From Ascidia mentula (taxonomy: Eukaryota > Chordata > Ascidiacea > Phlebobranchia > Ascidiidae): DNA of 64,000 nt. The position numbers were made by a program, and so were the translations under genes. The stretch spans positions 15,440,501-15,504,500 of the forward strand of contig OX387200.1 in assembly GCA_947561715.1 (NCBI GenBank), written 5' to 3'. The notes below the pieces were generated by a model. The model was given only the letters and a program-made list of their open reading frames with translations. It was not told the DNA's origin and searched no databases. Below are positions 19,237 to 25,200 of this stretch, one piece after another; the first letter of the stretch is position 1, and each line of letters opens with the position of its first letter.

Positions 19237-22200
19237 ATGAGGAACGTATTTAGCTTTGTGATGTTTGGGTAAGAATTTAATTTTAAGTTGGTAGTAGTAG
19301 TAGTATTGTTTTTAGGTCTTGAACTTAGCAAAGTTTAAGCGCAGTTGGGTAAAAAAGGTATGTTTATGAACTTTAAACTGTATTCAAATGAAGTTAATTT
19401 ACAAGTGCAAAAACTCAGCCTATGCATTTGGATTAGTGCCGAATTACCTTTTCGCTACTAAAAATAACTTTGGTGACAAAAAATTACGCACGAATAATTC
19501 CAAACCGCCATGGCATCAATGTAAGTTTGCAGGATTGATGTTATGTTTACTCGGGATAACACAAACCTAACTATGACTCCATAAAGACTCCAACACTGTG
19601 CAATTAGTGATTACTGGGTTTTATTAATATTAGTAAAACATAAGAATACTCACAATAAAAGATGTAATTTCATTGAGGCAGTTCGAGTGAACCCAATGAT
19701 GCGTAATAAGACAGCATAAAATTCGATGTTACGGTTCAGCAACTGTCTGGCTTTACAGCCCAAGCGGTCAATTATTTAGACTAATTTTAAGGCGTGTTGA
19801 CCTGGTAAAAATGTTATAAAACAAACGTGGATAAAAAAAGAGTCATAAAATTCCGGTCCTGCGAAACTGACCAAGATTAATTTCTCTCACGTGCAAGAGC
19901 GGGATTATCAGTTTAATATCGCACGAGTTTCGTGACTAGGCGAATTAAAGAGTGACGTGCGTTAATGAATGAATGTTGATCAAACAATTAAAATACATTT
20001 TTGACTACACGTTCATTGTAGGTGAGAAGAGACCTAAAAAACGACCTTCACAGCAGTATGGTCGGTCGGGGTAACTCCAGGTCACTTGTGTCATACCACG
20101 AGTCATACAAGATTAACTAATAATATATCTGTACAAGCAATATATTTGATACAAAACAAACTTTTTAAAAAGCATCAATTTGTCTATGGTGGTACGTCAG
20201 GCGTGACTTGGAGTTATTCCGACCGACCGCATCGCTGCGGAAGTGGTTTGAGTCTTCCTTGTTAGTGCGCCGGGAAACACAAAATACTCACCACTGAAAA
20301 TGCTTTTTTTAAGGTGGTTAAACTACCTCTTTGCCCGTGGATACAAGACTGGTTTAAAGGAAAATGATTTACCAGACCTTGAAAAACGTGGAAAATCTGA
20401 CAACCTCTGCCGAATGCTTGAAGGGTAACGATTTAATTTTGAATTGTCACAGTTTCCTTTAGTTCGATATCATTTGAGTTTAAAAAGAAAACAATTCAAT
20501 GATAACAAACAGTAAAATATTTTGAATTGTGGCAGAAACTGGAATGTTGAGATGGCTGAGGCTAAATCTAATGGAAAACGCCCAAGTCTAATAAAAGCAA
20601 CGTGGAAAACCTTTGGGTACCAATATTTATTCTTAGGCATATTTGCTGTGATACAGGTATATGGTTATTTAGGTATACATACATCTATTGTAATGTCAGA
20701 TCTTTTTTTATAGGAGGCAATTGTACTTGGCAATCCTTATTTGCTGCTTGGATTTTTGAGGTTTTTCGAAAATCGTGCAACATTGAGCGAGGCATATTTA
20801 TATGCTTCAGCTTTGACCATCACAACTATCGTGAATGGAATTTTGCGGGAATGGTATTTTTATGAAACCAGTATCATAGGTTGGCATCTAAGGGCAGCTA
20901 TGTGTGCGCTTATGTACAAAAAGGTACCACTTTCATAACTATTTATTCAAAAGGGCATGGAATGTGACAAATAAATAACTTATTTGTAGACTATTCGGTT
21001 AAACCAAACTTCACTTTCCAACACAACTACAGGCCGAATTATCAGTTTGGGGGCTACTGATGTCTTACGGTTTGACTACGCAAGTTTTGTTCAATCTTTT
21101 AGTTTGAGTTTACCCACAAATACAACACAAAGCCATAAGTTTTACTTACACTCAGGTCACCTCGTACATTCATCACTTGTGGATCTCTCCTATATATCTC
21201 GTGGTTGTTGTGATCTTTCTGTGGCAACTGGTTGGAGTTTCTATTCTTGTAATGTTTGGCCTCATAGCATTCACCATGCTCATGTCCATTGGCTTTGGTC
21301 GAATATACGGAAAAAACCGGTAAATTATATTCTTTGCTCAAATTACCTTTTAATTGCCATGAGACTAAATCGCGGAATACGTGACCCGCTTAAAAGTACG
21401 TAATTTATATTTAGTGGCAGAAGAGCAATTCTGATTAATTAGTATCTCTGGCAGCAAAAATAGCAGTATGTAATTTATATTTGTCTGACATGTATCCACG
21501 ATTTTGCAGATTTACTTTTAATAAAATATTAAATCATGCACACATACTTTCTTCGTGCAGAATGAAAACTTCGTTACGGACGGAAAAAAGAGTTCGAATG
21601 ATGAACGAGATCTTGTCAGCCATGAGAGTTGTAAAGATGTTTACTTGGGAAGAACCATACCGGAAGTTGATCGAAACAATGCGCAGGTAATGAATTTAGA
21701 CTCAATTGTTTCTCTGAAATACTTTTCTCTCCTTCTAACCACCGCAGAAACGAAATTCGCCAAATACTCAACAGTGCATATCTCCGTGGATTCAACATGG
21801 CCATGACGTATATCACAAGTAAACTAGCAATGTTCGGAACATTCGTACTCCACGTTTCCTTGGGAGGAGAACTTACCACTTCTAAGGTGTGGAATGCCAA
21901 AAAACTTTGGTCATTTATTGTCACTTTTTTTACTTGAACTTTTTTTTTGCCCCGTTTCAACTCAAAAACGCATATTTCACACCAGGTGTTTGCAGTCATA
22001 GCTTGGATCAACGCCCTTCAAAAACCCGTTGGAAAACTATTTTCAGGGGCTGTTGACTATACTTCCGAAAGTATCGTAAGCATGCGTCGCATTGAGGTAA
22101 CTATTTAATTTCTTCCAAACTTAGAAAGAAAAGCTGCAGACAGGGTGTGTACACGCACTGTTTCGACCAGTAAGGTCTCATCAGTGCAGCTGTTGAATGG

Positions 22201-25200
22201 CACTGTGCTAGCTTTCACACTAGTCTCCACTTTGTGGTACCTTTCGGTCAACGTCGATCTGCAGGGTACCCTATACTAGGTACCGAACAACAGAGACGAC
22301 GAACCACTGTGGAGCGCACTATGGCCAAACGGAACTGCTTGGTAACCGATAGTGCAAAAGGCAAAAAACACCAATGTAATATATGTGCAAAAAAAGCCAA
22401 GTTGGCGTGGAGACTAGTGTGCCTGCTAGTGTGAAAGCTAGCACAGTGCCACTCAACAGCTGCACTGATGAGACCTTACTGGTCGAAACAGTGCGTGTAC
22501 ACACCCTGTCTGCAGCTTTGCAATATTATGGCCTTTTTTTGCACATATATTACATTGGTGTTTTTTGCCTTTTGCACTATCGGTTACCAAGCAGTTCCGT
22601 TTGGCCATAGTGCGCTCCACAGTGGTTCGTCGTCTCTGTTGTTCGGTACCTAGTATAGGGTACCCTGCAGATCGACGTTGACCGAAAGGTACCACAAAGT
22701 GGAGACTAGTGTGCCTGCTAGTATGAAAGTTAGCACAGTGCCACTCAAAAGCTGCACGGATGAGACCTTACAGGTCGAAACAAAGCGTGTACACACCCTG
22801 TCTGCAGCTTTGCAATATTATGGCTTTTTTTGAACATATATTAGAAAGAAAACATATGCGAATGTTGCTGTAATACGGCTTTTCTGGCAATAATTCCTCA
22901 GTTTGTGCGCCTTGACATTGTCCACGTTGTTTGTATGCATTTTTACATGGTGATGAAGGCTACATGATTGTCGAAACATCGATATATAAAAATTATTGGC
23001 AGAAGAGCCATGTTGCAGCAGTAAAACATGCCTGACTGCGTCAGTAGTAATTAATTTATGCGATATGTCTCTTATTAGAACTTTCTGCTTCTCGATGAAA
23101 TTAATTGTCTAAAGAAATCTTTCAAAAATCAGTGTGGTGGTAAATTAATACAAAAATCCGTTGGTGAATCACAACCACAAATTCTGATTAAAAACTTCAC
23201 AGCATCATGGAATGAAGGCAACTTTTCTTACACTTGCAACGTAAGCAAGATAGTTTAAGCTAAAATTCGATTTGACGGTCTTGTATTTCAGGAAGATGAA
23301 CAGCAGCGATCAGCGACACTAAAGGATATCAACATACAGATAAACAATAACATGTTGTTAGCTGTAATCGGACCTATAGGCAGCGGAAAGGTTTGATGAA
23401 TTAAGTCATTTCATTCCACTATTTATTAGGCATACATTTTTAGTCATCGTTATTGAATGCAATACTTAATGAATTGCCTCCAAAGATTGGTCGAGTCTTA
23501 GTACAAGGTCAAGTTGCTTATGCGGGTCAGATACCATGGGTATTTTCGGGAACAATCAAAGAAAATATTTTGTTTGGCGAAAAATACGACATTGATCGCC
23601 TGAATGAAGTGATCGACGTTTGTGCAATGAGAGAAGTAAGTTTAAATTAATGATCATGTTTTGCAACATGCATAAATGTGCATAAATATATTCAGGATAT
23701 CAATTCATTTGACAACGGTGTAGACACGTTGGTTGGTGAACGTGGGGTAACATTAAGTGGAGGACAGAAAGCCAGAGTCAACCTTGCACGAGCTGCTTAT
23801 AGAGAAAACACAGACATAATATTGATGGATGATCCGCTAAGTGCTGTTGATTCAATCGTTGCCAATCAACTTTTTCATCAATGTATTTGTGGGCATATGC
23901 AAAATAAAGTATGGCAGTTCTTTCTGGTATTGTAGGTTTTTTTTTATTGTCCCAATTAATCTGCAGCTTCGTGTGTTGGTCACGCATCAGTTGTCAATGC
24001 TGAAAACAGTAGACAGGATATTGGTGCTGAAAGAGGTTTGTGTTGAATTGAGTTGCGCAACTTTTTTCCTTAGTCACAACAGTATGGTTTCTAGGGTGGA
24101 ATATGCAGTTCTGGAAGCTTTGATGAACTTTTAGCTGATGGAACGGATTTTGTCACTCTTCTGAAGCATGACGAGAATGACGAGGCAAAATTGACAAAAG
24201 CCCATGGTACGATTTTTGCTTGGCACAATTATCCTGTTTGTGATCACGTTAAATGTGACTAAGATTGCTTCGACTGGCCTAGATCAGTAATTGATCGTAT
24301 TCAACAATAATTATTTACGATTGTAGAACAATCAATATACAAGGCAACTGTAAGCTTAACTTCTACTTAATACAAAAAATGCGGAATAGGCTAACCCAGG
24401 TTTGCAGGCTTGGCAGCCTAAACAGCCTAGGTGTGGTTTCATGGGGTATATTGTGGCCAAGGTACAGTGGTGCGCAAGCGCTCAAGCGCTCAACCTTCAT
24501 ATATACCTAGTAGATCTCTACCACCATATCAGACAACGCAGTAATGTTTCATGAAATGGCATGTTCGGCATGTCTTTGTTTGGTGATCACAGCTATCGTG
24601 CAATATACCCCGTGAAACCACTGAGCTCATGTAGCCTGGTTATCCCGGGGTCGTGAGTTCGAATCCAACCGGGAGATTGATTTTTCAAATCTTGCTCCGA
24701 CTTGTATGGAAAAGTGGCTGATCCAACCAGGCTGCAATGATTGGGCTGCCAAACCTGCAAACCTTATGATTGCGATACGATAGTTGTGATCGCTAAGTTG
24801 CGCGGTGGGGCGTACTTCACCATGCAAATTGTCAACTTACCCAATTACTTCTACTCTTAGAGTATTATTACCATCATACACTTCAGGTAAAATGGAAGGA
24901 GCGGTCGTATCAGCTACACAAAGCGATTTCGAGGAGAAGCAGGTGACATTTTGTCCATATTTGTTCCAAATCAACAACAGTAACTTAACTGGTATAAAAC
25001 ACCATATCCTAATGCTAACATAAAACGGGCGTGGTAGATGAATAACTACATTAGAAAGAATCAAATTGGTACCACAATCTTTTTTAAAACTAAAGGAAAG
25101 AAAGATTGTTAAAGTAGAAGTAGAGACGAAAAAAGAAGGGGACATTGGGTGGAAAGCCTTTTACGAGTACACGGTTAACAACAAAATTTCATTTGTCCTG

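Follow-up and report, generated by a model that had tools for sequence, protein, structure and literature searches.

The 64,000-nt stretch of the Ascidia mentula genome analysed here (the window; C67:15440501-15504500 within a 195.8-Mb, 79-contig assembly) carries, in an intron of an ABC-transporter gene, a 708-bp, presumably non-coding element with hammerhead motifs. Our data support its identification as one insertion of an animal non-long-terminal-repeat (non-LTR) retrozyme, an already known kind of element that forms a large family in this genome. We give a probability of roughly three in four to the full reading, namely that a retrozyme with a 291-292-nt monomer and type I hammerheads was moved here via circles by Penelope-like enzymes. 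Penelope-like elements have been called a strong candidate for the mover of animal retrozymes (PMC7229834). New here are the presence of the Penelope tail pattern in retrozymes and the use of one site of each kind by almost all two-armed insertions whose ends were classified.

Retrozyme copies and Penelope-like elements share an insertion footprint

The element occupies 22133-22840 and is flanked on both sides by an exact 12-bp repeat, TTAGAAAGAAAA. Its two arms are inverted copies of one 292-bp repeat, and a family search with this repeat returned at least 78 matches in the genome (40 of 1,852 candidates scored). Family monomers measure 291-292 nt with a G+C content of 0.47-0.48, and tandem arrays of 291-nt units occur elsewhere in the genome. 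Of 33 loci, 20 are flanked by duplications of at least 10 bp, with a length of exactly 12 bp in ten, as against 14 of 1,056 mismatched flank pairs; at a threshold of 8 bp the figures are 24 of 33 loci, with element sequence repeated in two of these (L028 and L039), and 60 of 1,056 control pairs. The duplications are richer in A+T than the flanks (78% vs 62%). Thus the sequence-only reading, which had proposed a mobile element with exactly these limits, is borne out by the exact duplication and by the dispersed family.

Counting unit positions from the base following the predicted cut site, the outer ends of the copies form two clusters downstream of the cut, one at about 5-19 (short tail) and the other at 34-48 (long tail). 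These two windows, which were set after the ends had been inspected, span 30 of the 291 positions and hold 54 of 60 outer ends (42 from 21 two-armed loci and 18 from one-armed loci); the six remaining ends belong to L026, L032, L040, L041, L048 and C73:7388694. All 21 two-armed loci are arranged head-to-head with their tails outward (L002, L023, L024, L026, L030, L035, L038, L041, L042, L043, L044, L071, L072, L073, the window, C70:2551285-2554838, C70:4487737, C71:1900135, C73:7893000, C73:7388694 and C67:7860771). Among the 18 with both ends classified, 17 combine one short with one long tail, and since independent combination of ends would give at most half mixed insertions, the probability of this outcome by chance is at most 7e-5. 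Two places had been excluded beforehand, L074 as a duplicate of L073 and C70:4557331, probably a duplicate, because its repeat coordinates are the same as those of C70:4487737; three further places on C1 (1491966, 3332460 and 4005458) stand outside the count. For C70:4487737, C71:1900135, C73:7893000, C73:7388694, C67:7860771 and the C70 array, alignment coordinates rather than a reading of the flanks supplied the ends. Among the motifs listed, opposite-strand hammerheads lying within 1 kb of each other on C1 are ordered minus-plus in seven cases and plus-minus in none.

The Penelope-like elements of the same genome, with at least 121 GIY-YIG matches (150 of 382 candidates scored), include a resident family whose 892-aa protein holds RVT_1 and GIY-YIG in a single frame. 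In the stretch that follows the stop codon, copies of the Penelope-like family end near 175-182 or 214-220, and 10 of 11 head-to-head insertions, treated as independent, have one end of each kind (chance at most 0.006); nine of the ten mixed cases come from coordinates and the tenth was completed by L069, while the exception, C67:6425556/6429395, has two short ends. Opposite-strand GIY-YIG neighbours within 7 kb, among the matches listed, are likewise minus-plus in 17 cases and plus-minus in none. The shared footprint favours a mover of Penelope type for the retrozyme but falls short of proof. It also refines the sequence-only reading, which had named both Penelope-like elements and retrozymes without choosing: the element itself is of retrozyme type, and its insertion footprint is of Penelope type. 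The longest plus-strand stop-to-stop frame overlapping the element has 86 aa, a frame that was not compared with protein families, and the element has no frame large enough for a reverse transcriptase plus GIY-YIG endonuclease, so it is not an autonomous Penelope-like element.

Several observations touch these two groups of elements. A head-to-head Penelope-like array at C67:6133715-6147185 contains five GIY-YIG matches, with a same-strand unit period of 2,870 bp. Diverged hammerhead-like motifs stand next to Penelope-like elements at about 690-740 of L070 and about 960-1000 of L052 and L059, and possibly represent another retrozyme family inserted in or near such elements. Retrozyme insertions also occur as pairs about 9 kb apart, L031/L032 and L033/L034, on C67 and C69. 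At 441-470 of L073 (subtype B), the entire hammerhead is missing from one copy and the junction lies at the CAGCT repeats of its stem I, as though the enzyme had jumped over the folded ribozyme while copying.

Hammerhead motifs of the element

Two motifs with complete cores, one per strand, and a third with a changed core lie within the element, in agreement with the sequence-only reading, whose claim of complete plus and minus copies and of a damaged third held on direct reading. A scripted, stem-checked core search recovered the first two motifs and missed the third. In motif 2, stem I (AGCTGCA/TGCAGCT, 7 bp) is followed by CTGATGA, stem II (GACC-TTACT-GGTC, 4 bp) and GAAA. The earlier description of stem III as short was mistaken: the region spans 22 nt, beginning with ACAG/CTGT (4 bp) and continuing with interrupted pairs. 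Motif 1 has the same letters as motif 2, and its final stem I base, 22132, is part of the target-site duplication. On sequence and pairing, the core, the three stems and the open stem I are those of a type I hammerhead, and the motifs are presumably catalytic. When the full plus unit is compared with the family majority, all six substitutions, including the core change, fall within unit positions 212-273 (62 of 291 positions; 22722-22783 in the window), and the remainder of the unit has none; conversion, or a patch taken from a second template, would account for this.

For the 62-nt copies the minimum-energy fold is the hammerhead (-20.0 kcal/mol, z -1.72, 10 of 200 shuffles equally good). Folded as circles, the monomer of the window reaches -91.4 kcal/mol (z -3.0, 1 of 200 shuffles equally good) and the family unit a z of -3.8 (0 of 200). 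The covariance-model hit by which the sequence-only reading had hoped to confirm the motifs exists below the Rfam gathering score and is missing at that score: in the window, RF03152 (RAGATH-1) gives 28.4 bits (E 0.08; gathering 56.3) and RF00008 (type III) about 21 bits (E 0.4-0.5; gathering 48.5). A genome search with RF00163 (type I) returned no match, and control genomes were equally silent, which makes this search uninformative.

Across the whole genome, the strict hammerhead pattern has 972 + 1,359 = 2,331 matches, compared with 0 + 0 in the reversed control; overlaps inflate this count, as 100 listed rows reduce to 81 motifs, and many copies of a single repeat are no independent evidence of function. 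In the same listing, and at L072 and L073, subtypes are distinguished by stem III. The stem-checked search found 31 motifs in the retrozyme loci L031-L050, with a hammerhead in 18 of these 20, and two more in the window. A looser core pattern matched 21 times in the window (4.05 expected), but several of these matches recur in similar stretches, hence they were not used as evidence. An exact search for the hammerhead in two collections, of genome contigs and of viral contigs, gave 0 matches in each, as expected because this animal repeat is absent from them.

Over 33 loci, two of which (L071 and L072) had been picked by motif, the 60-nt hammerhead stretch shows a substitution level of 0.0178 compared with 0.0337 elsewhere in the unit, ranking third of 291 windows; the 13 core positions taken alone are not unusually conserved (2,441 of 20,000 random sets as low).

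The copied template

Changes are shared within loci far more often than by chance, at 0.57 for units on the same strand and 0.53 for units on opposite strands, against a mean of 0.06 in 200 shuffles (five stray pieces removed before counting). Without L008, L013 and nine diverged loci, sharing falls to 0.14 and 0.17, compared with 0.01 and 0.02. In L008, all ten full units (six minus, four plus) have the same three changes. Ten changes are private to one locus yet present in both arms; L072, of a different subtype, accounts for six, leaving four convincing cases in L023 (two), L038 (one) and the window (one). Private changes confined to one arm number 48 in 15 two-armed loci, as expected of later mutations. 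Moreover, of the 46 ends that are inner or 5', 4 fall no more than 1 nt from the predicted cut site, where 0.47 were expected (P 0.0014), and at L013 and L033 such ends are visible in the letters, with 4 extra bases each. Taken together, this evidence is consistent with ribozyme-cut RNA and a repeated or circular template, and fits a circle and a homogeneous multimer alike.

Discussion

We propose that retrozyme copies would be transcribed as multimers, which the hammerheads would cut into monomers, and that the monomers would then be closed into circles. A Penelope-like reverse transcriptase and endonuclease would copy these circles into a staggered break at which both DNA ends prime, with synthesis starting from one end at unit 34-48, the long-tail site, and from the other at unit 5-19, the short-tail site. 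Each end would copy the RNA, at times for more than one round in a rolling-circle step, and the joining of the two cDNAs head-to-head would leave a duplication of mostly 10-14 bp. A Penelope-like protein studied in vitro cleaves and extends the two DNA strands, with internal starts at two adjacent sites (PMC11167929); Penelope elements are described as having a tail on one of the inverted pseudo-LTRs (pLTRs), and head-to-head is their usual order (PMC3846280). It is tempting to speculate, at clearly less than even odds, that retrozymes and Penelope elements undergo the same two-ended reaction. In it, the two ends of a single staggered break would prime on the same circular RNA, one at each of two neighbouring sites, and the enzymes would copy round it, so that every complete insertion would carry a short and a long tail on a head-to-head pair. 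On this view the retrozyme would be a parasite that imitates both start sites used by its Penelope partner.

A number of observations weigh against our proposal. Both start sites of the Penelope-like protein were found on both strands, with no preference (PMC11167929). L038 has two long tails, 3 of the 21 two-armed insertions (L026, L041 and C73:7388694) have an end outside the clusters, and 9 of the 33 loci have no duplication of 8 bp or more. Compared with 20 GIY-YIG loci (L051-L070), the retrozyme unit matches only hammerhead-like pieces, in L059, L070 and L052 (E 0.004-0.05), with no tail sequence in common, and its tails are spaced by about 28 nt rather than the 38-40 nt or so of the Penelope-like family; therefore these comparisons do not single out a Penelope partner. 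At the level of the ribozyme, no hammerhead reaches the Rfam gathering score within the window, where a tRNA is the sole match at that level; a rival fold is the centroid of the 62-nt copies, and the hammerhead ceases to be the minimum once 96 nt of context are included. Among 25 motif forms, hand-picked as distinct among the 100 listed strict-pattern matches, covariation is weak: stem II shows a single two-sided change, whereas several of the changes in stem III disrupt pairs; the pattern itself fixes part of stems I and II. Covariation was dropped as proof of structure, the signal being too weak. Finally, motif 3 of the window is without the private change 261A>T common to motifs 1 and 2, a misfit with copying from one unchanged monomer circle.

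The two plus-strand hammerheads of the window differ, which counts in favour of an alternative that we consider unlikely though deserving of serious attention, namely that a homogeneous array already present is transcribed into a linear multimer and that this, not a circle, serves as the template. A homogeneous array would yield homogeneous copies, and the four convincing both-arm private changes are few beside the 48 one-arm ones. Active hammerheads, by contrast, would cut long multimers; within-locus sharing exceeds that in the 200 shuffles, though at 14-17% vs 1-2% in the reduced set; and the excess of ends near the cut site weighs on the same side, though cut linear RNA fits it as well as circles do. 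Homogeneous arrays could also suggest tandem satellite DNA, in which unequal crossing-over and gene conversion spread and homogenise the units and the hammerhead is a relic. The identical units of L008 are arrays of this kind, and conversion could produce the within-locus sharing of changes; but the dispersed single insertions, the exact duplications in 20 of 33 loci, the tail clusters and the fixed head-to-head order point to insertion events, and we regard a satellite origin as very improbable.

The insertion events themselves could be due to machinery of the long interspersed nuclear element (LINE) type, with the inversions arising by twin priming. Twin priming likewise yields tails-out inversions, and the resident LINEs lay outside our survey. 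Set against this, the retrozyme boundaries inspected show no poly-A or simple-repeat 3' end, and the short-plus-long combination in 17 of 18 insertions matches the pattern of the Penelope-like family; we know of no LINE feature that places a short and a long tail on paired ends. A LINE-type mover is therefore improbable in our view. Least credible is a host role, for example in cleaving the transporter intron, as the reason for the retention of the hammerhead here. Motif 2 is indeed sense to the transporter gene, yet the locus is one among thousands of dispersed copies, its third motif is already changed, and nothing in our data shows selection at the site.

Movement by Penelope-like enzymes thus remains our preferred reading, and the footprint makes the mover of retrozymes testable, with this genome as a large natural sample for the short-plus-long pattern. 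For retrozymes, we found no literature report of inverted ends of which just one bears a tail, in a search that left subscription papers and preprints outside PMC mostly uncovered. If the pattern is true genome-wide and in other animals, the scars alone would link thousands of ribozyme-bearing copies to one machinery; it would also reveal how Penelope enzymes use both DNA ends.

Locus and other features of the window

The features of the insertion are collected in Table 1. Open frames adjoin the intron on both sides, one ending at 22096 and the other, NFLLLDE..., beginning at 23079. Downstream, the piece at 23654-23932 has a match to PF00005 (ABC_tran, E 6.3e-6); for the exon piece of 37 aa (21986-22096) there is none in Pfam. 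The position in a transporter intron, already proposed from the letters, agrees with these frames and with the downstream match.

Table 1. Retrozyme insertion and surrounding features, in window positions
Feature	Positions	Strand	Remarks
Intron of ABC-transporter gene, element inside	22097..23078	+	GT at 22097, AG at 23077-23078; putative splice sites
Target-site duplication, left copy, 12 bp TTAGAAAGAAAA	22121..22132	.	Exact repeat in sequence
Hammerhead motif 1, complete core	22132..22191	-	Cut predicted between 22139 and 22138, minus strand
Minus arm of retrozyme	22133..22399	-	Outer end at unit position ~6 (short tail)
7-nt filler at head-to-head junction of arms	22400..22406	.	Gap between the two aligned arms
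Plus arm, ~1.5 units	22407..22840	+	Outer end at unit position ~38 (long tail)
Hammerhead motif 2, complete core	22458..22517	+	Cut predicted between 22510 (C) and 22511; sense to transporter gene
One 292-nt monomer between two predicted cut sites	22511..22802	+	Unit position 1 = 22511; direct-repeat spacing 292
Hammerhead motif 3, changed core	22750..22809	+	CGGATGA for CTGATGA; weaker stem III
Target-site duplication, right copy, 12 bp TTAGAAAGAAAA	22841..22852	.	Exact repeat in sequence

Elsewhere in the window, 66 nt at 6937-7002 are 80% identical to the post-stop region of the resident Penelope-like family, including a hammerhead-like part, CTGA-GAAGCGAA, and are probably an old Penelope remnant. 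A candidate at 39779 on the minus strand, CTGACGATGCTTTATAAAGCGAAA, which resembled a Penelope-type core, was rejected, as no further hammerhead parts were evident by eye. The tRNA match lies at 2616-2689 (Rfam, 34.5 bits), and a perfect (AC)n run of 137 bp at 44834-44970.

Comparison with known systems

The core and stem arrangement of the Rfam hammerheads RF03152 and RF00008 align with the motifs described here, at scores under gathering. Like the plant LTR retrozymes (PMC4918200), the element is non-autonomous, hammerhead-bearing and tandem-like; unlike it, the plant elements are described as having type III hammerheads in LTRs, RNA of 600-800 nt and 4-bp duplications (as given in PMC7229834). 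The resemblance to animal non-LTR retrozymes (Cervera and de la Pena 2020, PMC7229834) extends to type I hammerheads, a tandem arrangement of monomers in the range of about 170-400 nt, a G+C content under 50%, duplications of more than 4 bp, an apparent lack of LTR organisation, a predicted self-paired circle and Penelope-like elements in the same genome. Differences from the accessible description of those retrozymes are the stem III of 22 nt, which is imperfect here, and the many two-armed, head-to-head copies with a short and a long tail; moreover, RNA circles have been demonstrated for them and are predicted here. Finally, although the element of the window, unlike Penelope-like elements, encodes neither reverse transcriptase nor endonuclease, it shares with the GIY-YIG Penelope-like elements (PMC3846280, PMC11167929) the head-to-head order, a tail confined to one of the inverted ends, AT-rich sites with short duplications, a hammerhead motif and tandem copies.

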